Assembly (NCBI GenBank): GCA_027484825.1
Contig: JAIXSE010000021.1
Span: 434,001 to 498,000 of the forward strand
Length of the DNA: 64,000 nucleotides
Source of the DNA: Rubrivivax sp.
GTDB taxonomy: Bacteria; Pseudomonadota; Gammaproteobacteria; Burkholderiales; Burkholderiaceae_C
Direction of reading: 5' to 3'
Of this stretch, positions 48,621-59,681 are shown in pieces (position 1 is the stretch's first letter; every line of letters starts with the position of its first letter). The notes under the pieces were generated by a model that searched no databases, was not told where the DNA came from, and was given only the letters and a program-made list of their open reading frames with translations. A program made the translations under genes and the position numbers.

Positions 48621-49019
48621 ATGCGCATTGGTGTCGTCAGCAAGAGGATGCTCTTATGGATCGCCTGTTTGGCCATCCTGATGTCGTCCATTGCACCGGC
48701 AATCTCTCATGTGCTGCAGGCTCGATCGGCGGGTAGCTGGATCGAGATCTGCTCTGTCGCTGGCATGGAGTGGGTCAGCGTCGGCGTCGATGCCAACCAG
48801 AAGGCGCCAGACGTCCCAGACGTCCCAGGCAGCTCCATGCTTGAGCATTGCCCCTACTGCGCACTCCACGCCACGGCTTTCGCGCCGCCTCCCTCGTCGA
48901 TGGACGGTCAGGCGCTGCTGCAGTTGGCCTTTGACGTCCCCCGGCTGTTCCTTTCCGCGCCGCGCACGCTGTATGCGTGGCTCACTTCGCAGCCTCGCGG
49001 ACCGCCCTCTCTCTCCTGA
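48621..49019 (+). CDS. DUF2946 family protein
   Basis: This 132-residue protein has an N-terminal hydrophobic signal/anchor (MLLWIACLAILMSSIAPAISHVL) and the DUF2946 hallmark HCPYCALH at about residues 72-79, a possible Cu(I)-binding C-x-x-C site. A second weakly hydrophobic segment follows. Members commonly sit next to TonB-dependent receptors and copper genes, as here. Start ATG 48621 is the first that places the hydrophobic segment near the N-terminus; a TACAAT just upstream may be a -10 element. The metal role is inference. Confidence 0.82.
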   Translation: MRIGVVSKRMLLWIACLAILMSSIAPAISHVLQARSAGSWIEICSVAGMEWVSVGVDANQKAPDVPDVPGSSMLEHCPYCALHATAFAPPPSSMDGQALLQLAFDVPRLFLSAPRTLYAWLTSQPRGPPSLS

Positions 49020-49383
49020 CGCTTCGCAGTCACGCGCCATGCGCGACCTTCGGTCGTGCATGTCTGCGCCAGAAGACTTCCATGCCCTTCGACCCGCGCG
49101 CCTAGCGGCGCCACCGCTCGTCCACGTCGGCGCGCTCAGGTCGGCCGCCATGTGGCCGCGGCAGCACGCCGGGTGAACCTCGCGCGTCCATGGACGGCTC
49201 GACTTCGCGGCACTGGCCCGAAGTCGCTGCAGCGATGCGTCCCCTGTCCGGTGCTCTGTTCGGTGCCCTGACGCTGGTTCTGGCCATCGTCGCTCCCACC
49301 TTGTCCGTCGCCACGTCGGTGTGCGCTGCTGTCCGATGCCGGGTCCTTGGACCTCGTCGCCGGTGGCCCTTCACCGCTCCCTC
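49020..49383. other. Gap before the TonB receptor gene with a stable hairpin
   Basis: A strong hairpin lies at 49038-49062: CATGCGCGACC and GGTCGTGCATG pair over 11 bp with one G-T, closed by a C-UUCG-G-type tetraloop, 18 bases past the DUF2946 stop. It may be a terminator or mRNA end. Frame 49235-49387 could encode 50 residues with one membrane helix (MRPLSGALFGALTLVLAIVAP), perhaps a small membrane protein or remnant, but no ribosome site supports it. No Fur-, CueR- or Zur-like operator was recognised. Confidence 0.5.
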
Positions 49384-51336
49384 ATGACTTTCATCCATTC
49401 CATGACCCATACGACCCCATTCATGCGCCCCCATCTCATTGCAATGGCGGCTTCACTGGCCTGTTGCAACGTCGCCGCCGCCCAGACCACGGACACCCCG
49501 AAGACATTGCAAACAGTGGTCATCGCCGGCCGCCCCATCATCGAAGACAACCGTACCGACGCATTCGGCAGTCTCTCCACCGAGGTGACCGCCTCGCAGA
49601 TTCGGGATCTGAATGCGCTCGACCTGTCTTCCGCGCTCAGGCGCACGCCGGGCGTGACGGTCTCGCGCTTTAATCCGGTGGGGTCGTTCGGAGGCGACGA
49701 AGGGGGAGCGGTCTTTGTGCGAGGCCTCGGGGCCAGTCGTCCGGGCAGTGAAATCAAGACCTACATCGACGGCATCCCGTTCTATATGGGCGTGTGGAAC
49801 CACCCACTGCTGGACCTGATCCCCGTGAACGGCATTGACCGCATCACCGTCCACAAAGGCCCACAGCCGCAGAGCTTCGGCAACACCTTCGCCGCCATTG
49901 ACGTGACGCCGCTTCGCGCTGCACGTGAGGGCCTCTCGGCCGATGGCCGATTGAGCGTGGGCAGTTTCTCGACCGTGGTGGAGCAGGCCAGCCTGCAGGT
50001 CCGCCAAGGCGACCTCGGTGTCGCCTTGGCCCAGGGTATGGCTCGTTCCGATGGCGCCCGCGCGGACGGCGACGGCAAGTTGTCCAACGTGCTCGGCCGC
50101 GTGGACTACCGGCTGACACCGCAGTGGTCGGTCGGCATGACCTTCCTGTTCGCCGACAACAAGGTGTCCGACCCCGGCGAAGTCGGCAATCCCGCCACCA
50201 AGACCGGCAAGTTCGACACCCGTGGGGGCTTCGCAGCCGTGTCGGTCTCGCATGAGCACGAGCGGGCTCGTGGATCGCTGCGGATCTACGACAACAGCGC
50301 CCGAAGCAACTGGCACGACAACCCTGCGCAGGCCGACATCCTCAGCAAGTCCCGGCTGAGCGGGCTGCGCTGGACGGAAACCATCCAACCCTGGACCGAT
50401 GGTGAGATCGCCGCCGGCCTTGATGTGGATCGCATGAGCGGCAGCGCGGCCTTCGGCGGTTTCACCGCGTTCGACGGCGTGTCCCTGCGCCTGACCTCGC
50501 CGCATGTGGCGCTGAGCCAGGCGGTGGACATTGGCGGCGGCTGGAAGGCCACGCCCTCGGCCGGCGTGCGCTTGTACGACCATAACGTTTACGGCCGCTC
50601 CAGCGCGCCGCATGCGGGCCTGGTGGTCGACCGCGGCGATTCGCTGTCGCTGCGCGTGAACGCAGCGCGCGGGGTGAACCACCCCGGGTTGGACGCTGCG
50701 CTGCTCAATGCCATCGTGCAGCCACTGGCTGGCGCTCCGACCAGTTGGCGCGACCTCCAGCCTGAGCGCATGGACCACGTGGAGGCTGGCGTGCGCTGGT
50801 CGCCGCAGCCGGGCAGCAGTCTCGACGTGGCCGTCTTCAACGACGAACTGAAGAACCGCTATGTGTTTGCCTTCCCACCCGCGGTGACGCAGCCCAGCTT
50901 CACCAACCTGGGTGACTACCGCGTGCAGGGTGCCGAGGTCTCGGTCCAGCAGGCCATCGGCAATGCGTGGTCGCTGTTCGGCGGCCTGACGCTGCTCGAC
51001 CCGAGCCGCAGCGATCTGCCTTATGCACCCAAGCGTGCGCTGTCGCTGGGGGTGAACTGGCAGCAAGGCCTGTGGCGCGTGAGTGCCGATGCGCAAGGGC
51101 AAAGCGAGATGTTCACGCTCAGCCGCACGCGCGCTGACGGGGCCACCAATACCGGCCGCGTGGGCGGCTTCGCCGTCGTCAATCTGCGTGCCGCCTATGC
51201 GCTGCCCCAACTGCTCGGGCCTCGCGGCGAGGTCTTCCTGGCGCTCGAAAACCTGGCTGACCGCCACTACGCCTACCGGCCCGGCTATCCCATGCCTGGC
51301 CGCTCCGCGCAAGTCGGCGTGAATGTGAGCCTGTGA
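49384..51336 (+). CDS. TonB-dependent outer-membrane receptor
   Basis: This 650-residue protein has a signal peptide (LIAMAASLACCNVAAAQ), a plug domain (TLQTVVIAGRPI, LRRTPGVTVSRFN, AVFVRGLGASRPGSEIKTYIDGIPFY, IDRITVHKGPQ) and a 22-strand-type beta-barrel ending in an aromatic-poor VGVNVSL. As first gene of the operon with thiocarboxylate biosynthesis genes and a copper-uptake-associated protein, it is the likely importer of the metal-loaded product, comparable with PdtK. Start is ATG 49384 or ATG 49402; no ribosome site decides it. Confidence 0.9.
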   Translation: MTFIHSMTHTTPFMRPHLIAMAASLACCNVAAAQTTDTPKTLQTVVIAGRPIIEDNRTDAFGSLSTEVTASQIRDLNALDLSSALRRTPGVTVSRFNPVGSFGGDEGGAVFVRGLGASRPGSEIKTYIDGIPFYMGVWNHPLLDLIPVNGIDRITVHKGPQPQSFGNTFAAIDVTPLRAAREGLSADGRLSVGSFSTVVEQASLQVRQGDLGVALAQGMARSDGARADGDGKLSNVLGRVDYRLTPQWSVGMTFLFADNKVSDPGEVGNPATKTGKFDTRGGFAAVSVSHEHERARGSLRIYDNSARSNWHDNPAQADILSKSRLSGLRWTETIQPWTDGEIAAGLDVDRMSGSAAFGGFTAFDGVSLRLTSPHVALSQAVDIGGGWKATPSAGVRLYDHNVYGRSSAPHAGLVVDRGDSLSLRVNAARGVNHPGLDAALLNAIVQPLAGAPTSWRDLQPERMDHVEAGVRWSPQPGSSLDVAVFNDELKNRYVFAFPPAVTQPSFTNLGDYRVQGAEVSVQQAIGNAWSLFGGLTLLDPSRSDLPYAPKRALSLGVNWQQGLWRVSADAQGQSEMFTLSRTRADGATNTGRVGGFAVVNLRAAYALPQLLGPRGEVFLALENLADRHYAYRPGYPMPGRSAQVGVNVSL

Positions 51337-51369
51337 CCCAGACCCCACCCCCTCATGAGGAGCCTTCAC

Positions 51370-51846
51370 ATGTCAACGATTCACCGCTGGGTCCGTGGGG
51401 CCGTTGCCGCGGCCACATTGGCCTGCAGCGCCTTGCACGCCATTGCCGCTGAGCCGGCCGACGAAGCCTCGATTCGGCAAGTGATTCTTTCCACGTGGGA
51501 CAAGCCGGACGCGCGCGTCGAGGTGGGCCCCGTGGTCGTGGTCGGCAACCACGCCGTGGCCGGGTGGACGCAGGGACAGCGCGGGGGCCGCGCCTTGATG
51601 GCGCGCAACGCGGCCGGCCACTGGGCCGTGGCCGCCTGCGGCGGCGACGGACTGAAGTCTGCGAAGACGCTGGAATCCACCGGCATGGCCCCCGCGCAAG
51701 CCAGGCAGCTCAGTGCGTCGGTCGCCAAAGCCGAGGCTGACGTGGCGCCCGCACGTCGAGCGCTGTTCTCCACGTTCGATGGCCTGCTGCGTATGAACGA
51801 GGGGGATGCGCACACCGGCCACGCAGCGTCGGGAGCCAAGCCATGA
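51370..51846 (+). CDS. Copper uptake system-associated protein
   Basis: This 158-residue exported protein has a signal peptide (AVAAATLACSALHAIAAE) and a compact domain: SIRQVILSTWDKPDARVEVGPVVVV, HAVAGWTQGQRGGRALMAR and CGGDGLKSAKTLESTGM. I recognise the family that NCBI annotates as copper uptake system-associated. It is probably periplasmic. AGGAG before ATG 51370 sets the start. Its stop overlaps the MoeZ-like gene by four bases, binding copper handling to the biosynthetic genes. Confidence 0.72.
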   Translation: MSTIHRWVRGAVAAATLACSALHAIAAEPADEASIRQVILSTWDKPDARVEVGPVVVVGNHAVAGWTQGQRGGRALMARNAAGHWAVAACGGDGLKSAKTLESTGMAPAQARQLSASVAKAEADVAPARRALFSTFDGLLRMNEGDAHTGHAASGAKP

Positions 51847-53006
51847 AGCTGCCGCCGCTGGTGCCTCCACGGGCGGAGTTGGGGGCCGAGGAGATCGCCC
51901 GCTACAGCCGCCACCTGCTGCTGCCGGAGCTCGGGCTTGAGGGCCAACGCCGCCTCAAGAGCGCCCGCGTGCTCGTGATCGGCGCCGGCGGCCTGGGCTC
52001 GCCGGTGCTGCTGTACCTGGCTGCAGCAGGCATCGGCCGCATCGGCATCGTCGAGTTCGACGTGGTGGAGTCGTCCAACCTGCAGCGGCAGGTCATCCAC
52101 GGCATGTCGAGCCTGGGACATGCCAAGGCTGACAGCGCCGCGCATGCCATCCACGAGCTCAACCCCTTCGTGGACGTGCGGCTGCACCGTGAGCGGCTGG
52201 AAGCCCACAACGCGCTGGCCGTTCTCGACGGCTACGACCTGGTCATCGACGGAAGCGACAACTTCGCCACGCGCTACCTCGTCAACGACGCCTGCGTGCT
52301 GGCCGGTAGACCCTACGTGTGGGGCTCGATCTACCGCTTCGAAGGCCAGGCCTCGGTGTTCTGGGAAGACGCGCCTGGGGGCGTTGGCTTGAACTACCGC
52401 GACCTCTATCCCGAGCCACCGCCGCCGGCGCTGGCGCCGTCCTGCGCCGAGGGGGGCGTGCTGGGCGTGTTGTGCGCGGCCATCGGCTCGGTCATGGCGA
52501 CCGAGGCGGTCAAGCTGATTGCGGGCCTGGGCGACTCGCTGCTCGGGCGACTGATGGTCTACGACGCGCTGGACATGAGCTGGCGCAGTCTGCCGATCCG
52601 CCGCGAGAAGCTGCGCACGCCGATCACCGGGCTCATCGACTACCCGGCATTTTGTGGGCTGCACCCGGTCGAGGCCGACGACGTGCCCATCCTGACAGCC
52701 CACGCGCTGAAGGCGCTGCTCGACAGCGAAGGGCCGCCCGTGCTGATCGACGTGCGTGAAGCGTCGGAACGCGCCATTGCCTGCATTCCCGGCGCGCGGC
52801 ACATCCCCAAGGGCGCGCTGGCCGAGGATGCCTGGCTCGCCAGCCTGCCCAAGGACACGCCCCTGGTGCTGCATTGCAAGTCGGGCGCGCGCTCGAAGCA
52901 GGCGCTGCTGGCCTTGCGCGAGCGCGGCTTTGCCCAGGTGAGCCATCTCGATGGCGGCATCCTGGCGTGGATTGACCAGGTGGATGCCTCGCTGCCCCGC
53001 TACTGA
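51843..53006 (+). CDS. MoeZ-type E1-like adenylyltransferase/sulfurtransferase
   Basis: This 387-residue protein adenylates the C-terminus of a ThiS-like carrier and transfers sulfur to it. It has a ThiF/MoeB domain (ARVLVIGAGGLGSPV with GAGGLGS at 47-53, VIDGSDNFATRYLVND, PSCAEGGVLGVLC) and a C-terminal rhodanese domain with C345 in LHCKSGARSKQ. The region LNYRDLYPEPPPP lacks the first zinc Cys pair, as in MoeZ rather than MoeB. The same architecture occurs in PdtF (pyridine dithiocarboxylate) and QbsC (thioquinolobactin). JAMM protease and carrier genes follow at once. Confidence 0.92.
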   Translation: MKLPPLVPPRAELGAEEIARYSRHLLLPELGLEGQRRLKSARVLVIGAGGLGSPVLLYLAAAGIGRIGIVEFDVVESSNLQRQVIHGMSSLGHAKADSAAHAIHELNPFVDVRLHRERLEAHNALAVLDGYDLVIDGSDNFATRYLVNDACVLAGRPYVWGSIYRFEGQASVFWEDAPGGVGLNYRDLYPEPPPPALAPSCAEGGVLGVLCAAIGSVMATEAVKLIAGLGDSLLGRLMVYDALDMSWRSLPIRREKLRTPITGLIDYPAFCGLHPVEADDVPILTAHALKALLDSEGPPVLIDVREASERAIACIPGARHIPKGALAEDAWLASLPKDTPLVLHCKSGARSKQALLALRERGFAQVSHLDGGILAWIDQVDASLPRY

Positions 53007-53015
53007 GGAGACCCC

Positions 53016-53432
53016 ATGCTCTTGCTCACGCCCGAACTGGCCGATGCGGTGACGCGTCACGCATTGGCCGAGCATCCCCTCGAAGCCTGCGGGTTGATGG
53101 CCGGCCCGGCCGGGGGAACGCCTACACGCCATGTTCCGCTTCAAAACACGGCGCGCGCCAGCGACGCCTTCCGCTTCGACGCCCGCGAGCAGTTGGCCGT
53201 GTGGCGCGAGCTGGAAGCGCGCAACGAAGTGCCGCGCGTGCTCTACCACTCTCACACCGCATCGCGCGCCTACCCGAGCCGTGACGATGTGGCGTTCGCC
53301 GCCGACCCCACTGCGCACTACCTCATCGTTTCCACGGCTGACCGCACCAACCCAGAACTGCGCAGCTATCGAATCGTAGGGGGCCATGTCATCGAAGAGA
53401 CCGTGGTCGTCGCCGGTCCCGCTTCACGTTGA
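53016..53432 (+). CDS. JAMM (M67) metalloprotease for sulfur-carrier maturation
   Basis: This 138-residue protein carries the complete JAMM zinc motif: E23 in LEACG and H78-S-H80 followed by seven residues, S88 and D91 (YHSHTASRAYPSRDD). In thioquinolobactin synthesis the homologue QbsD removes residues after the Gly-Gly of the carrier QbsE. The carrier gene here follows within 14 bp and does have extra residues after Gly-Gly, so the same maturation is likely. Ribosome site GAGGAGA. Confidence 0.92.
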   Translation: MLLLTPELADAVTRHALAEHPLEACGLMAGPAGGTPTRHVPLQNTARASDAFRFDAREQLAVWRELEARNEVPRVLYHSHTASRAYPSRDDVAFAADPTAHYLIVSTADRTNPELRSYRIVGGHVIEETVVVAGPASR

Positions 53433-53445
53433 AGGAGTCTTGCCG

Positions 53446-53736
53446 ATGTCCATCACTGTTCACATCCCCACGCTGCTGCGCGCTCTCACGCAGGACCGCA
53501 AGCGCGTCGAAGGCACCGGTCGCACCGTGCTCGAAGTCATCGAGTCCATTGACCGCCAGCATCCCGGCCTGAAAGACCGGCTGGTCAACGAGGGTCGTGC
53601 GCACCGCTTCATGAACCTCTACGTCAATGACGACGACATCCGCTTCGCCGACGATCTGGCCACGCCGGTGAAGGCCGGCGACACGCTGACCATCCTTCCC
53701 GCGGTGGCCGGAGGCGCCGGAGCGCCCGCATGTTGA
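53446..53736 (+). CDS. ThiS/MoaD-like sulfur carrier proprotein
   Basis: This 96-residue ubiquitin-like protein (ITVHIPTLLRAL, then LVNEGRAHRFMNLYVNDDDIRF and GDTLTILPAVAGG) ends in Gly89-Gly90 followed by AGAPAC. The six extra residues block the Gly-Gly and must be cut off before adenylation, which fits the JAMM protease upstream. After cleavage it would carry a C-terminal thiocarboxylate as sulfur donor. AAGGAG, nine bases upstream, fixes ATG 53446. Its stop overlaps the CaiB-like gene by seven bases. Confidence 0.9.
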   Translation: MSITVHIPTLLRALTQDRKRVEGTGRTVLEVIESIDRQHPGLKDRLVNEGRAHRFMNLYVNDDDIRFADDLATPVKAGDTLTILPAVAGGAGAPAC

Positions 53737-55613
53737 CGGCTTGGCTTGCGCGATGCGCGCTTGCCGGGCTGCCGGAGCAGGCGCCGTCAGGGTTCGAGCC
53801 ATTGGCTCGGTCGCTGCGGTATCAGGCGTCGCGGCTGGGGCTCACGCTGGAAGGGGCGCCGCCGCCGAAAGCCGTGCGCCGCACCGGGAACCCGGGCTGC
53901 TTGAGCTTCGACTTCATCGTGCCCGGCGCAGGCGCCATACCGATCGGGATCGATGCCTGGGCCGATGGTGGCAAAGCGCCGGCCAGCGAGTTCCTGATAC
54001 AGGCAGCCAGCGGGCTGATGGCGGTGCATGGCCGCTCCAGCGGCGGCAGCCGGGCGCTGGGCGTGGACTTCGTGTCCACCGCCGGCGCGGCACTGGCGCT
54101 GCAGGGGGCGATGGCCGCCGCGCTGGGCCGATTGCGCGGCGCCGCCGTGGCACGGGTCCATCTGTCGCTGGCCGGCGCGGCGCTGCTGGGCATCGGGCAG
54201 TACATTGCCGGCGCCACCGCCCCCGAGATGCCTGAACGCATTCCCCCGGGCAGTGGATCACCGCTGGACCGGCCGCCGTTCGTGTCGTCCGACGGCATCG
54301 TGTTCGAGCTGGAGTCGCTGGACGCCGCGCCGTGGCGCCAGCTGTGGTCAGGCCTGGGCGTGGATGCGTCCTTGGCCGCGCAAGGCTGGAAGGGCTTCCT
54401 GCTGCGCTATGCCAAGGCGACCTCGCCCATCCCGGCCGAGATGATGCAACGCCTGGCGGCCTTGCCGTATGCCGACATCGCCGCGCGTTGCGCCCAGGCC
54501 GGTGTATTCATCTGCCCGGTGCGAACGCTGGCCGAGCGCTCGCGCGATGCCAGCGCCTCCAGCCTGTGGAACCAAGGACCCTGGCGTTTCGCCGCCGCGC
54601 CTGGCGCCCCCGCGGTGCGGCCCGGCTTGCCGCCAGATGCGCTGCCTCTGAGCGGCTTGACCGTCGTTGAATCGTGCCGCCGCATCCAGGGCCCGCTGGC
54701 CGGTCACCTTCTGGCCATGATGGGCGCGACGGTGATCCGCATCGAGCCCCCGGGCGGGGACGCGCTGCGCGGCATGCCGCCGATGGCCGGCGACGTGTCG
54801 GCACGCTTTGATGCGTTGAACCGATGCAAGACCGTGCGCGAGATCGACATCAAATCCGCGGCCGGGCGAGACGCCGTGCTCGAACTGTGCCGCGACGCCG
54901 ATGTGTTCCTGCACAACTGGGCGCCGGGCAAGGCGGCCGATCTGGGGCTGGACGACGCAGACCTGTCGCGCGTGAATCCGGGCCTGGTGTATGCCTACGC
55001 GGGAGGCTGGATCGACGGGGATGAACCCGACTTGCCGGGTACCGACTTCACGGCGCAGGCGTACTCGGGGGTCGCTGACCTCATCTCGCGCGCCAACGGC
55101 ACGCGTGGCGGGTCACTGTTGACCGTGCTCGATGTGCTGGGCGGCATCGTCGCGGCACAGGGCGTCACCGCCGCGCTGCTGCGCCGGGCCTTGCAGCCCT
55201 CGCGCTGCCGTGTGGATACCTCGCTGCTGGGGGCGGCCTCGCTGCTGTGCGAACGCGAGCTTCAGGCTTGCTGGACGGAGGGCGGCGCTGCCGAGCGTGC
55301 CACGCTGCAGGCGGTGCTCCCCGCCAAGGACGGGCGCCTGGCCATCGATTGCGCCGATGCTTCAGCACTGCGTCGCCTGGCCGAAGTGGTGGGCCTGCCC
55401 GGGTCAGCCGCGACGCAGGAGGTTCGCGGCGCGCTGACTGCATGGCTGGCCCCCCGCGCCATGCATGACGCCGTTTCGCTCCTCGCCGCTGTCGGCGTGC
55501 CTGCCGTGGCCGTCAGCGAAGACCTCGCCACCCTGTCCGGACACCCCGCGCTGGCCCGTGCGCTGCGGTCAGCTGGATACACCCACGTCGAATCTCCCTG
55601 GAGTTGGTCATGA
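53730..55613 (+). CDS. CaiB-like family III CoA-transferase, duplicated, N-half degenerate
   Basis: This 627-residue protein consists of two type III CoA-transferase-like halves. In the second half PGTDFTAQAYSGVADLI keeps the likely nucleophile D439, with LSGLTVVESCRRIQGPLAGHLLAMMGATVIRIEPP as the typical domain start. In the first half the same place reads ASEFLIQAASGLMAVHG, with Glu at 87 instead of Asp, suggesting loss of catalysis there. Homologues PdtI and QbsK occur in thiocarboxylate clusters, with role unclear (acyl transfer between CoA or carrier). It overlaps both neighbours (7 and 4 bases). Confidence 0.88.
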   Translation: MLTAWLARCALAGLPEQAPSGFEPLARSLRYQASRLGLTLEGAPPPKAVRRTGNPGCLSFDFIVPGAGAIPIGIDAWADGGKAPASEFLIQAASGLMAVHGRSSGGSRALGVDFVSTAGAALALQGAMAAALGRLRGAAVARVHLSLAGAALLGIGQYIAGATAPEMPERIPPGSGSPLDRPPFVSSDGIVFELESLDAAPWRQLWSGLGVDASLAAQGWKGFLLRYAKATSPIPAEMMQRLAALPYADIAARCAQAGVFICPVRTLAERSRDASASSLWNQGPWRFAAAPGAPAVRPGLPPDALPLSGLTVVESCRRIQGPLAGHLLAMMGATVIRIEPPGGDALRGMPPMAGDVSARFDALNRCKTVREIDIKSAAGRDAVLELCRDADVFLHNWAPGKAADLGLDDADLSRVNPGLVYAYAGGWIDGDEPDLPGTDFTAQAYSGVADLISRANGTRGGSLLTVLDVLGGIVAAQGVTAALLRRALQPSRCRVDTSLLGAASLLCERELQACWTEGGAAERATLQAVLPAKDGRLAIDCADASALRRLAEVVGLPGSAATQEVRGALTAWLAPRAMHDAVSLLAAVGVPAVAVSEDLATLSGHPALARALRSAGYTHVESPWSWS

Positions 55614-57283
55614 ACGCATCCGGCCTCATTGATCTGGTTCCCTCCACCCTGCGCCGCGAATGGAGCCGGCTCGGGTGGTACCCCGATCGCTCGGTGTACG
55701 ACCTGTTCGCCCAGCACGCGCGGCGCCATCCCGACAAGGCCGCCGTGGTGGCGCCGACGGGATCCGTGAGCTACGCCCTGCTGCTGGACGCCGCGCATCG
55801 CCTCGCGGCCAGCCTGCGCGCACGCGGCATCGTCGAAGGCGATGTGGTGGCCTATCAGCTAGGCAACTCGTGGCGCAGTTGCGCGATCGACCTGGCCGTG
55901 GCGGCCCTGGGGGCGGTGGTCGCGCCGCTGCCCCCCGGGCGCGGACGGCTGGACCTGGAATCGCTGCTGCGACGCTGCCAGGCGCGTGGCGTCATCCTTG
56001 CCTCGTCCCAAGGCGATGGCGACCCGTGCGACCCGTGCGATCCGTGCCAAGTGGTCGAGTCGCTGCGTCCCACGCTGCTGTCGCTGCGCGTGCTGGTGGC
56101 CGACGGTGCGCCGCGCCCGGGCTGGCACTCGCTGGACGCGATGCTTGACGCCGCGCCAATCGCCGCGACGGCGCTGCCCGCGATTGACCCTGATGCGCCG
56201 GTGCGCCTGCTGGTGTCGTCGGGGACCGAGTCCGAGCCGAAGCTGGTGGCCTACTCGCACAACGCGCTTCTGGGCGGGCGCGGGCGCTTCCTGCAGAGGC
56301 TGCATCCCGACCGCGAAGGCTTTCGTGGGCTCTACCTCGTGCCGCTGGGTTCGTCGTTCGGCTCCACGGCCACTTTCGGCGTGCTGTCGTGGCTGGGGGG
56401 CTCCATTGCGCTCTTGCCGCGCTTCGAACCGGCACTCGCGATTGAGGCCATCGAGACGCTACGCCCCACGCACGTTCTAGGCGTGCCCACCATGCTGCAG
56501 CGCATGGCGGCCGACCCGCGGCTGGCGGGCGTCGACAAATCCAGCCTGAAGGCCGTGGTCAGCGGCGGCTCGGTGATCGACGAGGCCAGCATCCACCGCT
56601 GCGTGCAGGCCTTCGGCTGCGGCTTCATCAGCCTGTACGGGTCTGCCGACGGCGTGAATTGCCACAACACGCTCGATGAGCCCTTGGACCTGGTGCTGCG
56701 CAGCGTGGGTCGGCCCAACGACAGCGTGTGTGCCATTCGCATCATCGACGAAGCGGGCCGCGAAGTGCCGGCGGGTGACATCGGAGAGATCACCGCGCGC
56801 GGGCCCTTGAGTCCGATGCAGTATGTCAATGCGCCGGAACTGGACCGCCGCTATCGCGACTCCGAAGGGTGGGTGTTGACTGGCGACCTTGGCCGCATCG
56901 ATGCCGACGGCTGCCTGGTACTCACCGGGCGCAAGAAGGACATCATCATCCGCGGCGGTGCCAACATCAGCACGGTGCAGGTCGAGACGCTGGCTACCAC
57001 CCATCCCGACGTGGTGAGTGCCGCCTGTATACCGGTGCCCGACGCCGACCTGGGCCAGCGCCTGTGCCTTTGCCTGACCTTGCGAGAGGGCGTGGAGCGG
57101 CCCAGTCTGGCCGAGTTCAATGCGCACCTTCGCGAGCAAGGGCTCGAAATCAACAAGCTGCCCGAGTACCTGCGTTATTGCCGGCAACTGCCGCTGAGCC
57201 CCGCCGGCAAGGTGGACAAGAAGGCGCTGGCCGCCGACGTGGCCGCGCTGGGCAGCGGCCCGGGTTTCCGCATGAGCGTCTGA
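55610..57283 (+). CDS. AMP-dependent acyl ligase
   Basis: This 557-residue ANL-family enzyme activates a carboxylic acid with ATP. Visible motifs are the P-loop-like LLVSSGTESEPKL (near residue 201), SLYGSADG, TGDLGRIDADGCLVLTGRKKDIIIRGG (near 423) and the catalytic Lys in LSPAGKVDKKA (near 534). In the pdt and qbs pathways the corresponding ligase (PdtJ, QbsL) forms the acyl-adenylate that receives sulfur from the carrier. No fused methyltransferase domain is present, unlike QbsL. ATG 55610 overlaps the previous stop (ATGA). Confidence 0.92.
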   Translation: MNASGLIDLVPSTLRREWSRLGWYPDRSVYDLFAQHARRHPDKAAVVAPTGSVSYALLLDAAHRLAASLRARGIVEGDVVAYQLGNSWRSCAIDLAVAALGAVVAPLPPGRGRLDLESLLRRCQARGVILASSQGDGDPCDPCDPCQVVESLRPTLLSLRVLVADGAPRPGWHSLDAMLDAAPIAATALPAIDPDAPVRLLVSSGTESEPKLVAYSHNALLGGRGRFLQRLHPDREGFRGLYLVPLGSSFGSTATFGVLSWLGGSIALLPRFEPALAIEAIETLRPTHVLGVPTMLQRMAADPRLAGVDKSSLKAVVSGGSVIDEASIHRCVQAFGCGFISLYGSADGVNCHNTLDEPLDLVLRSVGRPNDSVCAIRIIDEAGREVPAGDIGEITARGPLSPMQYVNAPELDRRYRDSEGWVLTGDLGRIDADGCLVLTGRKKDIIIRGGANISTVQVETLATTHPDVVSAACIPVPDADLGQRLCLCLTLREGVERPSLAEFNAHLREQGLEINKLPEYLRYCRQLPLSPAGKVDKKALAADVAALGSGPGFRMSV

Positions 57284-57297
57284 AGGAGGAACCTTCC

Positions 57298-58464
57298 ATG
57301 CAATCGCCATTGATCGCCTCGGACCTGTCCAGCCGCGTCCGCGCATGGCTGGATGCGCACATCGTTCCCGCCGAAGCCGTGCTGGACAGTGAGGGCGCCG
57401 CAGCCACAGGCAAAGCCGATGAACTGATCGCCGCCGCGCGGCGCGCCGAACTGTGGGGCCTGTTCTACCCTGGCGCCTGGGGCGGCCGCATCGACAGGCT
57501 GACCGACTATGTGCCCGTGGCCGAAGAGGAGGGCCGCTCCGAGCATGGTCCCATGATCTTCGGTAGCGAAGCCGTCATCGACGCGCACATGCTGGATCGG
57601 CACGGCAGCGCCGCGGTGAAGGAACGCTACCTCGCGCCGCTGGCGGCGGGGCTCGCCACACCCGCCTACGGAATGTCCGAGCCAGGGAGCATCGGCTCCA
57701 TCCCCTCGACCATCCAGACCTCGGCGGTGCTCGAAGACGGCCATTGGCGCATCGACGGCCGCAAATGGTTCATCTGTCGCGCCGGCCGCGCCGCATTCGT
57801 CACCGTGGTGGCGCGCACACGGCCTGACGCACCTGCGGACGACGCGCTGTCCATGATCATCGTGCCCACCGACACGCCCGGATTCAGGGTGGAGCGCGAA
57901 CTCGACGTGTTTGGCCGGCACCAGGGCCAGTGCGAAATCTCGTTCACGAACGTGCGCGTGCCGGCCCACCACGTGTTGGGACGCCCGCACGCGGGCATGG
58001 GTTTGATGCGCGAGCGTCTGGTGCTGGGCCGTCTGGTGCGTGCGAGCCACTGGCTGGGCCTGGGGCAGCGCTGCTTCGACCTCATGGTGGAACGCATTCG
58101 CTCGCCGCGCGGCGAATTGGCGGCGTTGGCGGACAAGCAGTTGATGCGCCAGCACGTCTTCGAGGCGCATCTGTCGCTGGCGAGTGCCCGCGCCCTGGTG
58201 CGCGCCGCGGCGGAGGACTTCGACGCCGGTCGGCGCTGCGACGTGTCGGCCAACCTCGCCAAGGTGGCTGCGGCCCGGGCGCTCAACCGCTGCGCCGATT
58301 CGGCCGTGCAGGTCTACGGCGCCGAGGGGGTGTGCGCCGCGCTCTCGCCGCTGGCCGGCATCTACCGCGCCGCGCGTGCCGCACGCATTCTCGATGGCAC
58401 CGACGAAGCGCTCATCAACTCGGTCGGCAGGCAATTGGTCGGCATCGACGTCACCGCGCCTTGA
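57298..58464 (+). CDS. Acyl-CoA dehydrogenase family protein
   Basis: This 388-residue flavoprotein has the acyl-CoA dehydrogenase layout: N-terminal helices, AYGMSEPGSIGS and RIDGRKWFICRAGRAAFVTVVAR (FAD region), VPAHHVLGRPHAGM, and C-terminal helices with VQVYGAEGVCAALSPLAGIYRAARAARILDGTDE. The DGTDE end fits the usual catalytic region. It follows the ligase by 14 bp with a strong ribosome site (AAGGAGGA). Its homologue in pdt is PdtL. It may desaturate or oxidise the aromatic precursor; the substrate is not known. Confidence 0.9.
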   Translation: MQSPLIASDLSSRVRAWLDAHIVPAEAVLDSEGAAATGKADELIAAARRAELWGLFYPGAWGGRIDRLTDYVPVAEEEGRSEHGPMIFGSEAVIDAHMLDRHGSAAVKERYLAPLAAGLATPAYGMSEPGSIGSIPSTIQTSAVLEDGHWRIDGRKWFICRAGRAAFVTVVARTRPDAPADDALSMIIVPTDTPGFRVERELDVFGRHQGQCEISFTNVRVPAHHVLGRPHAGMGLMRERLVLGRLVRASHWLGLGQRCFDLMVERIRSPRGELAALADKQLMRQHVFEAHLSLASARALVRAAAEDFDAGRRCDVSANLAKVAAARALNRCADSAVQVYGAEGVCAALSPLAGIYRAARAARILDGTDEALINSVGRQLVGIDVTAP

Positions 58465-58475
58465 GGAATGCAACC

Positions 58476-59681
58476 ATGGCTGAATCCAGCATCCCAGTGA
58501 GCCGGGCGGCGCCCGGCGCAAGAGCGCAAAGCCTGCTCCTGGGGACGATCCTCACGGCCGCGATGGCGCTGCCGATGCTTGTGCTCTATGCCGTCGGTGC
58601 GCTCGGTCCTGTGCTGGCGCAGGACCTCCGGGTGGCGCTCAGTTCCTTGGGCTGGGTCACGTTCACGACCTTCAGCATTGCTGCGGTACTGTCCCCGTGG
58701 GCGGGGCCCTTGACCGACAGGCTGGGTGCGCGGCGCGGCCTTGTACTGCTGTTCATGGCCGTGGCTCTGGCCTATGTGGCGGCGGCCTGGGTGCCAAGCC
58801 TTGCCGCACTGGCCGGCGCGGTGGCCATCGGCGGCGTGGCGCAGGCGCTGTGCAATCCGGTCACGAACCTGCTGATCGCGCGCGAGGTGGCCCCTGCGCA
58901 CAAGGCGCGGATCGTCGGACTGAAGCAGGCAGGGGTGCAGGGGGCGGCGCTGTTTGCGGGCATGGCCTTGCCCACGCTCGCATCGGGCATAGGCTGGCGT
59001 CTGGCGCTCGGCCTCATGGCGCCGATCAGTGTGCTGCTGGCTGTGACGGCGCTGGCGGTGACGAAACCCCACACGCCAGGACCCGTCCGACCCTTGCGAC
59101 CGCCGCGACCGAACCATCGGCTGGCCCTCTTGATGACCCTCCAACTCTGCGTGGGTGTGGCGCTCTCCGCGTTCGTGACCTTCCTGCCCGCGCACGCAGC
59201 GGCCAAGGGCATGAGTCTGGCGCAGGCGGGCGCGCTGATCGCCATCTTCGCGGGCACGGGAATGCTGTCGCGCATCGCACTCACGCCGTTGGCGGGGCGG
59301 CTTCCGGACGAGTCTGCGCTGATGCTTGTGTTGCTGCTGACGGCGGCCGTGGCGTCTGGAAGTGTGCTGATGGCCACCGCCGATCGGCACTGGCCGCTAT
59401 GGGGCGCGGCCGCACTGATGGGCGCCAGCGCGGTGGCCTCCAATGCCGTTGCCATGAGCATGCTGATCCGCGACGAGGGTTTCGGATCCACTGCGGTCGC
59501 CTCTGGCTGGTTGTCGGCGGGCTTCTTCGCCGGTCTGGCGATCGGGTCTCCCCTGGCTGGCGCCGTTGCGGCCGACAGTGGCAGCTTCGCGGCAACGTGG
59601 TGGGGGATTGCCACGGTGCTCTGCATCGCCGCCATGGTCACGCTGCTGCTCTGGCGCGTGCGGCGTGGCATCGAGCCGTAG
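58476..59681 (+). CDS. MFS transporter, probable metallophore exporter or importer
   Basis: This 401-residue protein has 12 predicted membrane helices and the MFS loop motif GPLTDRLGARRGL between helices 2 and 3. It is the last gene of the metallophore operon, 11 bp after the dehydrogenase gene. PdtE and QbsA in related loci are MFS proteins assigned to transport of the product; direction across the inner membrane is not decided by sequence. It ends three bases before the convergent J-domain gene, leaving no room for a terminator. Confidence 0.88.
   Translation: MAESSIPVSRAAPGARAQSLLLGTILTAAMALPMLVLYAVGALGPVLAQDLRVALSSLGWVTFTTFSIAAVLSPWAGPLTDRLGARRGLVLLFMAVALAYVAAAWVPSLAALAGAVAIGGVAQALCNPVTNLLIAREVAPAHKARIVGLKQAGVQGAALFAGMALPTLASGIGWRLALGLMAPISVLLAVTALAVTKPHTPGPVRPLRPPRPNHRLALLMTLQLCVGVALSAFVTFLPAHAAAKGMSLAQAGALIAIFAGTGMLSRIALTPLAGRLPDESALMLVLLLTAAVASGSVLMATADRHWPLWGAAALMGASAVASNAVAMSMLIRDEGFGSTAVASGWLSAGFFAGLAIGSPLAGAVAADSGSFAATWWGIATVLCIAAMVTLLLWRVRRGIEP

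Follow-up and report, generated by a model that had tools for sequence, protein, structure and literature searches.

A predicted copper-repressed thiocarboxylate operon in Rubrivivax sp., a likely chalkophore branch of the pdt family

The closest described systems are the pdt operon for pyridine-2,6-dithiocarboxylate (PDTC), the qbs locus for thioquinolobactin and, on the side of control, the cruR operon of Bordetella pertussis. In B. pertussis the DUF2946 protein CruR is a copper-sensing leader: its CXXC motif senses copper, its C-terminal RAPP, with 45 residues between the two motifs, stalls the ribosome, and when copper is present the relief of the stall lets Rho terminate upstream of a TonB receptor gene (Roy et al., PMC9426467). 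Thiocarboxylates have been described as iron or zinc carriers (PMC12193353, PMC8456098), and the pdt-type operon core is already known because Iyer et al. listed such operons as 'siderophore biosynthesis' in N. europaea, N. multiformis, Ralstonia, Hahella and Pseudomonas (PMC1779556; their abbreviations as interpreted here). We analysed a stretch of 64,000 nucleotides from Rubrivivax sp. (assembly GCA_027484825.1, contig JAIXSE010000021.1, positions 434,001 to 498,000), called the window below, in which an open reading frame (ORF) that by its motifs is a CruR-type leader heads a pdt-like operon at 48621-59681. We consider it likely that this operon is copper-repressed and makes, exports and re-imports a small thiocarboxylic-acid chelator mainly for copper capture, that is, a chalkophore, and that it represents a copper-wired branch of the pdt family.

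Within 48621-59681 there are ten collinear genes on the + strand (Pfam and NCBIfam families), and every gene named by an earlier sequence-only reading of this DNA was found among them:

48621..49019, + strand: cruR-like leader ORF (DUF2946), 132 aa, with CPYC at aa 77-80 and RGPP at aa 126-129 followed by 3 residues (PF11162, E 2.7e-21; motif spacing 45)
48769..49119 (starts of 78-nt windows), + strand: C>G bubble 1, candidate Rho-utilisation region, second largest + strand C>G area in the 64-kb window
49020..49401, + strand: cruR/receptor intergenic region, 382 nt, predicted copper-dependent termination site by analogy with the 162-bp Bordetella region
49208..49581 (starts of 78-nt windows), + strand: C>G bubble 2, intergenic region and receptor gene start, largest + strand C>G area
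49402..51336, + strand: TonB-dependent receptor, predicted metal-complex uptake; start perhaps 49423 (PF07715 plug, 2.6e-17; PF00593 barrel, 4.5e-31)
51355..51846, + strand: copper uptake system-associated protein (NF033672, E 1.3e-37, 127.9 bits, cut-off 50; alignment; model)
51843..53006, + strand: MoeZ-like E1 with rhodanese domain, predicted carrier activation and sulfur loading (PF00899 ThiF, 2.6e-73; PF00581 rhodanese, 1.8e-18; loop HCKSGARS)
53016..53432, + strand: JAMM metalloprotease, predicted carrier-tail trimming (PF14464 Prok-JAB, 2.9e-24; HSHTASRAYPSRDD; HSH-x7-S-x2-D)
53446..53736, + strand: ThiS/MoaD-like sulfur carrier with capped C-terminus GG-AGAPAC (PF02597 ThiS, 1.9e-15)
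53730..55613, + strand: two-domain type III CoA-transferase-like putative thioacid synthase of the PdtI/QbsK/PtmU4 type (PF02515 CoA_transf_3, 3.1e-70; GTDF motif)
55610..57283, + strand: acid-AMP/CoA ligase, aryl-acid type (PF00501 AMP-binding, 3e-56; nearest solved chains; pocket motifs)
57298..58464, + strand: acyl-CoA dehydrogenase, proposed oxidation of the CoA-bound acid (PF00441, PF02770, PF02771; 1.6e-30)
58476..59681, + strand: MFS transporter, proposed exporter (PF07690 MFS_1, 3.4e-36)

The gaps from the receptor gene to the MFS gene are, in order, 18, -4, 9, 13, -7, -4, 14 and 11 bp, the ligase gene overlapping caiB by 4 bp, and 382 bp lie between the end of the DUF2946 gene and the receptor start used. 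A sigma-70 promoter scan gave 0 matches against 1.1 expected. The CaiB protein consists of two homologous halves, diverged copies of one another (blastp E 4e-6; hhalign probability 97%), and PtmU4 is likewise the two-domain form (Dong et al., PMC6006322). Judged from sequence, the gene set and the predicted thiocarboxylate chemistry are solid; chemistry of the pdt/qbs kind, as proposed earlier, is borne out by the motifs, the gene order, the two-domain CaiB protein and the ligase pocket. The pdt operon has the same moeZ-JAMM-thiS-caiB-ligase core (PdtF-J) in the same order, and pdt-type Pseudomonas loci, like the window, have the dehydrogenase and MFS genes behind the core and a very similar ligase pocket (the KC sequence itself lay outside the comparison). 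The carrier, JAMM, E1 and CaiB chemistry is also common to the qbs locus. The thioacid cassette PtmA3/PtmU4 of thioplatensimycin consists, as in the window, of a ligase and a two-domain type III CoA-transferase, but unlike in the window the carrier, JAMM and E1 are encoded elsewhere than in the ptm cluster (PMC6006322). Neither DUF2946, the receptor nor NF033672 had a match in the fetched actinobacterial loci.

The DUF2946 protein of the window has CPYC, exactly 45 residues, RGPP and then 3 residues to its end. A CruR leader was defined by a CXXC and a C-terminal RxPP 45 +/- 2 residues apart, first position in the operon and a long intergenic region, and this ORF has the spacing, the position and the intergenic region. 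The copper link of the operon, which had been drawn from the placement of DUF2946 and the copper uptake system-associated protein with the receptor, is therefore stronger than was claimed and stands on better grounds, because the DUF2946 protein appears to be a CruR-type copper-sensing leader (PMC9426467). The likeness to cruR-crtA(bfrG)-bp2921 of B. pertussis covers the CXXC-45-RxPP leader, the long intergenic region, the C>G bubble and the TonB receptor behind; the Bordetella operon differs in having three genes and no metallophore synthesis genes, and no high-affinity chalkophore has been identified for CrtA. By this analogy there is good support, within the window's branch, for copper being the metal that controls the operon. 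At low copper the ribosome would stall at the RGPP of nascent CruR and the operon would be transcribed; copper on CPYC would relieve the stall, and Rho would stop transcription upstream of the receptor gene. As a separate observation, four further CruR-type leaders with the 45-residue spacing lie near other TonB receptor genes of the same genome (G000:C35:529162, C35:535727, C13:52504 and C35:139753; L154, L155, L156), and two of the four adjoin PepSY_TM genes, as in Bordetella.

Related loci were collected by scanning the genome contigs of 84,980 species with a three-sequence CaiB alignment, which gave 308 relatives; the best 80 of these and the window make up the 81 loci compared below, in which the presence of genes was decided by tblastn thresholds. 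The five-gene core (moeZ, JAMM, thiS, caiB and ligase) was found in 61/81 loci and therefore the assembly of the operon is not chance, while the seven-gene set (core, dehydrogenase and MFS) was found in 48/81; these counts are lower bounds because several loci end at contig ends. The window's gene order also occurs in most Pseudomonas, Nitrosomonas, Nitrosospira, Alcaligenes and Acidovorax loci. When the strict CruR pattern was run over 1.73 Mb of loci (the reversed sequence gave one match), the leader was found in the window, L024, L026 and L073, together with one likely false match in the actinobacterial L081. A CruR profile, trained on 21 sequences that included DUF2946 genes from some of the same genomes, added L023, L040 and L056; Pfam backs CruR at L023, its matches in the L040 and L056 genomes coincide with those of the profile, and the Pseudomonas CruR ORFs end in RASP, not RxPP. 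In 7/81 loci altogether, CruR and the receptor gene or moeZ are no more than about 0.4 kb apart, with about 0.04 expected in 81 x 1 kb as reckoned from 46 DUF2946 matches in 17 genomes. In L024, L026 and L073 it stands directly upstream of moeZ, and therefore the synthesis genes themselves seem to lie behind the copper switch. In the ligase tree the window joins L023 (support 95; three-row and six-row sets below are named by their size), then L024 (99), then L025, L026 and L073 (95); the neighbours are Acidovorax, Paracidovorax, Hahella (CruR not found), Rugamonas and Parachitinimonas. All of the three-row set (support 99) and five of the six-row set (support 95) are CruR-linked.

A second branch is marked by homologues of PigD and PigE. 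Among the 61 core loci PigE-like genes occur in 24 and PigD-like genes in 22, and many of these loci also have a methyltransferase, a second MFS and an AraC gene. Representatives of the PigE-/PigD-like proteins gave 1386 bits with NF053554 (over its cut-off of 850) and 685 bits with NF053552 (under its cut-off of 950). From the gene order pdtCKPELMFGHIJON of P. kilonensis F113 (PMC7415375), the pair apparently corresponds to PdtL and PdtM, a mapping of our own. The window's receptor type is present in 18/81 loci, all 18 among the core loci. PigE never occurs in a core locus together with this receptor type (0/61, Fisher p 2e-5), with NF033672 (0/61, p 0.004) or with CruR (0/61, p 0.036); these p values are inflated by the shared ancestry of the receptor, CruR and cassette rows, which counts against the reading proposed here. 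Compared with pdt-type loci, the window (stretch 43730-64000) lacks the PigD/PigE-like pair, the methyltransferase, the second MFS, the AraC regulator, the GH88-like gene and the PdtK-type receptor, and has instead CruR, another receptor type and NF033672. Examples of the PigE-/PigD-like genes, homologues of prodigiosin MAP enzymes, are L068:2255-4765 (-) and L028:1348-3753 (+).

These comparisons bear on the alternative that survives best, although we judge it unlikely, namely that this is a conventional pdt-kind siderophore operon for iron or for a mix of metals, whose thiocarboxylate carries iron or zinc and in which copper control of the leader is secondary. It draws on the description of PDTC as a siderophore and as serving zinc use (PMC12193353, PMC8456098), a point against a copper carrier, and on the resemblance of the core genes and the ligase pocket to those of pdt-type loci. 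However, the CruR leader and NF033672 are copper-uptake markers, and the window has neither the PdtK-type receptor nor the AraC regulator that pdt-type loci carry. A weaker point in the same direction is that no Fur-box-like site was found in the window with two patterns at <=3 mismatches, where chance alone would produce hardly any and true boxes may be degenerate.

The NF033672 protein, which has the NCBIfam short name mbn_chaper_assoc, is apparently exported and has one invariant Cys and a His-bearing tail (alignment and model). Its model is of good confidence (pLDDT 83) and had no solved fold at E<=0.001, only weak NTF2/cystatin-like matches. The gene was found in 1/369 genomes of the window's class, the window's own, and in 14/399 genomes of its family (13 over the cut-off), where it occurs in 2/4 genomes with the ligase vs 12/395 others (p 0.007). 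It was present in 11/17 cassette-bearing genomes searched, eight of which were known beforehand to have it in the locus, and elsewhere in the genome for 3 of 9 cassette genomes without it in the fetched locus. A further observation is that in Methylosinus sp. Ce-a6, the genome of L069, an NF033672 gene lies near a TonB-receptor-like gene (L148) on a contig other than that of the thioacid operon.

NF033672 also occurs apart from the cassette, and this gives some ground for a second alternative, in which only the receptor and NF033672 form a CruR-governed copper-uptake unit and the thioacid genes are unrelated to copper and merely co-transcribed. In 11/11 fetched NF033672 loci without the cassette (of 12) a CruR-type ORF lies within 9-15 kb (profile E<=0.01), and four of them, L179, L182, L184 and L185, have the window's receptor type (50-61% identity) adjoining NF033672, while synthesis genes are missing from the stretch and the genome gave no ligase match; in three of the four CruR is directly upstream. 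By sequence these four look like receptor-only users, possible pirates of a foreign chelator. We nevertheless regard the uptake-unit explanation as improbable, since CruR stands directly before moeZ in L024, L026 and L073, where the receptor follows the cassette (L024, L026) or sits on a separate contig (L073), and since the receptor type together with NF033672 is confined to one branch of the cassette. A role of the product in defence against excess copper or in starving competitors, instead of in nutrition, is very improbable. A protective effect of PDTC against toxic metals has been proposed (PMC7415375), but an operon under CruR is switched on at low copper (PMC9426467), opposite to what detoxification would need, and this operon contains a receptor; detoxification was rejected for this direction of control.

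Several findings weigh against a copper-repressed chalkophore operon. There is no CruR beside 54/61 core loci; it was not found in the stretches fetched from G664 and G683, two more genomes of the family that have the operon, and neither DUF2946 nor NF033672 was found in the searched N. europaea and N. multiformis genomes. PF11162 matches six times in the window's genome, and NF033672 is not cassette-specific, the ligase being present in only 2 of the 14 family genomes that have it. The two largest + strand C>G bubbles of the window (by area) cover the 3' half of cruR, the intergenic region and the receptor gene start, which speaks for the reading, but on the - strand two bubbles exceed the best of them and six exceed the second, so in DNA this rich in GC they are no rarity. 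Also in favour, and repeated in six relatives, is the C-G excess over 400 nt from the CXXC: it ranks at percentile 99.6 on the + strand of the window, and at 95.2 in L023, 86.5 in L024, 99.4 in L026, 98.9 in L073, 93.2 in L040 and 98.9 in L056 by the same measure on the same strand. The leader RNA (48849-49400) is not unusually unstructured (z -0.69), unlike the published Bordetella rut region (PMC9426467). Finally, the sequence itself shows the parts, their order, the motifs and the conservation, whereas we infer which acid and which metal are used, which way transport runs and that CruR control extends over all nine downstream genes. Control by CruR and the role of the thioacid cassette are taken over by analogy from what others have shown in Bordetella and for platensimycin.

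For the chemistry, the following steps are proposed from the known enzymology of the families. JAMM would cut AGAPAC off the carrier, MoeZ would adenylate the exposed Gly-Gly end, and its rhodanese domain would add sulfur to give carrier-COSH. The ligase would activate an aromatic or pre-aromatic carboxylic acid, first with AMP and then as the CoA ester, the dehydrogenase would oxidise the CoA-bound acid, and the two-domain CaiB protein would exchange CoA for sulfur to give the thiocarboxylic acid. This would be exported by the MFS protein and bind copper outside the cell; the receptor would carry the copper complex into the periplasm, where the NF033672 protein may help in its handling. The receptor had one weak match among solved structures (5fok, E 9e-9), and because of this its ligand is not readable from structure.

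Among solved structures the ligase is closest to salicylate and 2,3-dihydroxybenzoate (DHB) ligases, and the HN of the salicylate ligase CahJ aligns to SS in the window ligase. The motifs GSSFGST, GVPTMLQR, SGGSVI, SLYGSADGVNCHNTLD and KLPEYL recur unchanged or almost unchanged in the pdt-type ligases of Pseudomonas, Stutzerimonas and Thauera, and therefore the simplest reading is that the same acid is used; nitrifier ligases differ slightly more in the pocket (GTAFGST, CHTTLD). The acid is possibly dipicolinate or a precursor, if the pdt-type loci make PDTC. An acid such as dipicolinate, as suggested earlier, thus agrees with the pocket, but without the PigD/PigE-like pair, the methyltransferase, the AraC regulator and the PdtK-type receptor the locus is not a plain pdt operon. 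QbsL, in contrast, is a ligase-methyltransferase fusion. The window has no such fusion, and the L021 fusion has other motifs and the most divergent pocket among the proteobacterial rows; thioquinolobactin as the product, which the sequence-only reading had also held unlikely, was therefore rejected. Its observation that methyltransferase and kynurenine-pathway genes are missing holds nearby, no such family being found by Pfam among the eight flanking proteins (the near locus only; the genome was not searched for kynurenine genes). Four of these eight had no Pfam match and the other four are a DUF2145 protein, an esterase, an HSP70 and a GntP permease. The dehydrogenase could aromatise a dihydro acid. 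A proline-to-pyrrole reading was tried and dropped: the scores with acryloyl-CoA reductase and prolyl-PCP dehydrogenase models are about equal and far under both cut-offs, so no substrate is assignable. In Amycolatopsis (L085, L089 and L091) a ligase with an HN (DHB-like) pocket lies a few kb from the CaiB protein gene, and because of this pocket a different acid may be used there.

The CaiB protein at 1e-50 was found in 0/368 other genomes of the class, and the ligase in 3/398 other genomes of the family. At least 41/59 near relatives match the CaiB protein at 1e-20, the best among the matches listed being 1.2e-33 with 39% identity over part of the protein, and we took these for generic CaiB proteins. 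A search of viral contigs gave 3 pattern stretches, none a CaiB relative. Of the 80 fetched loci, 16 come from ammonia oxidisers (Nitrosomonas, Nitrosospira or Nitrosovibrio), and another two carry the methanotroph labels Methylosinus and Methylococcales. In the family of N. europaea (Nitrosomonadaceae) the ligase was found at 1e-120 in 35/125 genomes. Operon and ammonia monooxygenase (AMO) occur together in 26 of these 125, the operon alone in 9, AMO alone in 41 and neither in 49 (p 0.005), an association not relied on because AMO is missing from drafts that must have it, e.g. N. europaea. Since the searched genomes of N. europaea and N. multiformis are without DUF2946 and NF033672, the copper case applies directly to the window's branch alone, and copper as the controlling metal in ammonia oxidisers is a weaker claim.

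To our knowledge few bacterial chalkophores are known. Methanobactin operons share with the window the chalkophore logic and the mbn_chaper_assoc name, but the window's product would be non-peptide, and other Mbn families (including MbnA, MbnB and MbnC) had no match among the ten operon proteins (the genome was not searched). If our reading is true, a CruR-headed synthesis operon would amount to a thiocarboxylate chalkophore predicted from its genes, and it would offer one possible answer to the question of how copper is acquired by some ammonia oxidisers. Among the papers listed we found none linking thiocarboxylates with chalkophores (subscription pdt papers lay outside the search), none joining the 'thioacid cassette' with CruR, DUF2946 or chalkophores, and none joining PDTC with nitrifiers or methanotrophs. 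A wider and more tentative idea, to which we would give somewhat less than even chances, is that small non-peptide thiocarboxylates are a widespread chalkophore class. Pdt-like operons would then form two branches, one with PigD/PigE and one for copper, the latter CruR-wired in Burkholderiales, Chitinibacteraceae and Pseudomonas, feeding AMO or particulate methane monooxygenase (pMMO) in ammonia oxidisers and some methanotrophs, and pirated by receptor-only strains (CruR-receptor-NF033672).

Further genes accompany the core in other loci. A relative of the GH88-like unsaturated glucuronyl hydrolases, without a Pfam match, is present in 49/61 core loci, e.g. L088:15925-17007 (profile to 2ahf, E 2e-34), and has no match in the window's genome. 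In Nitrosomonadaceae loci (L036:19601-20875, L050:16953-18467 and related ones) an alginate-export-like porin (PF13372) and an amidohydrolase follow the operon.

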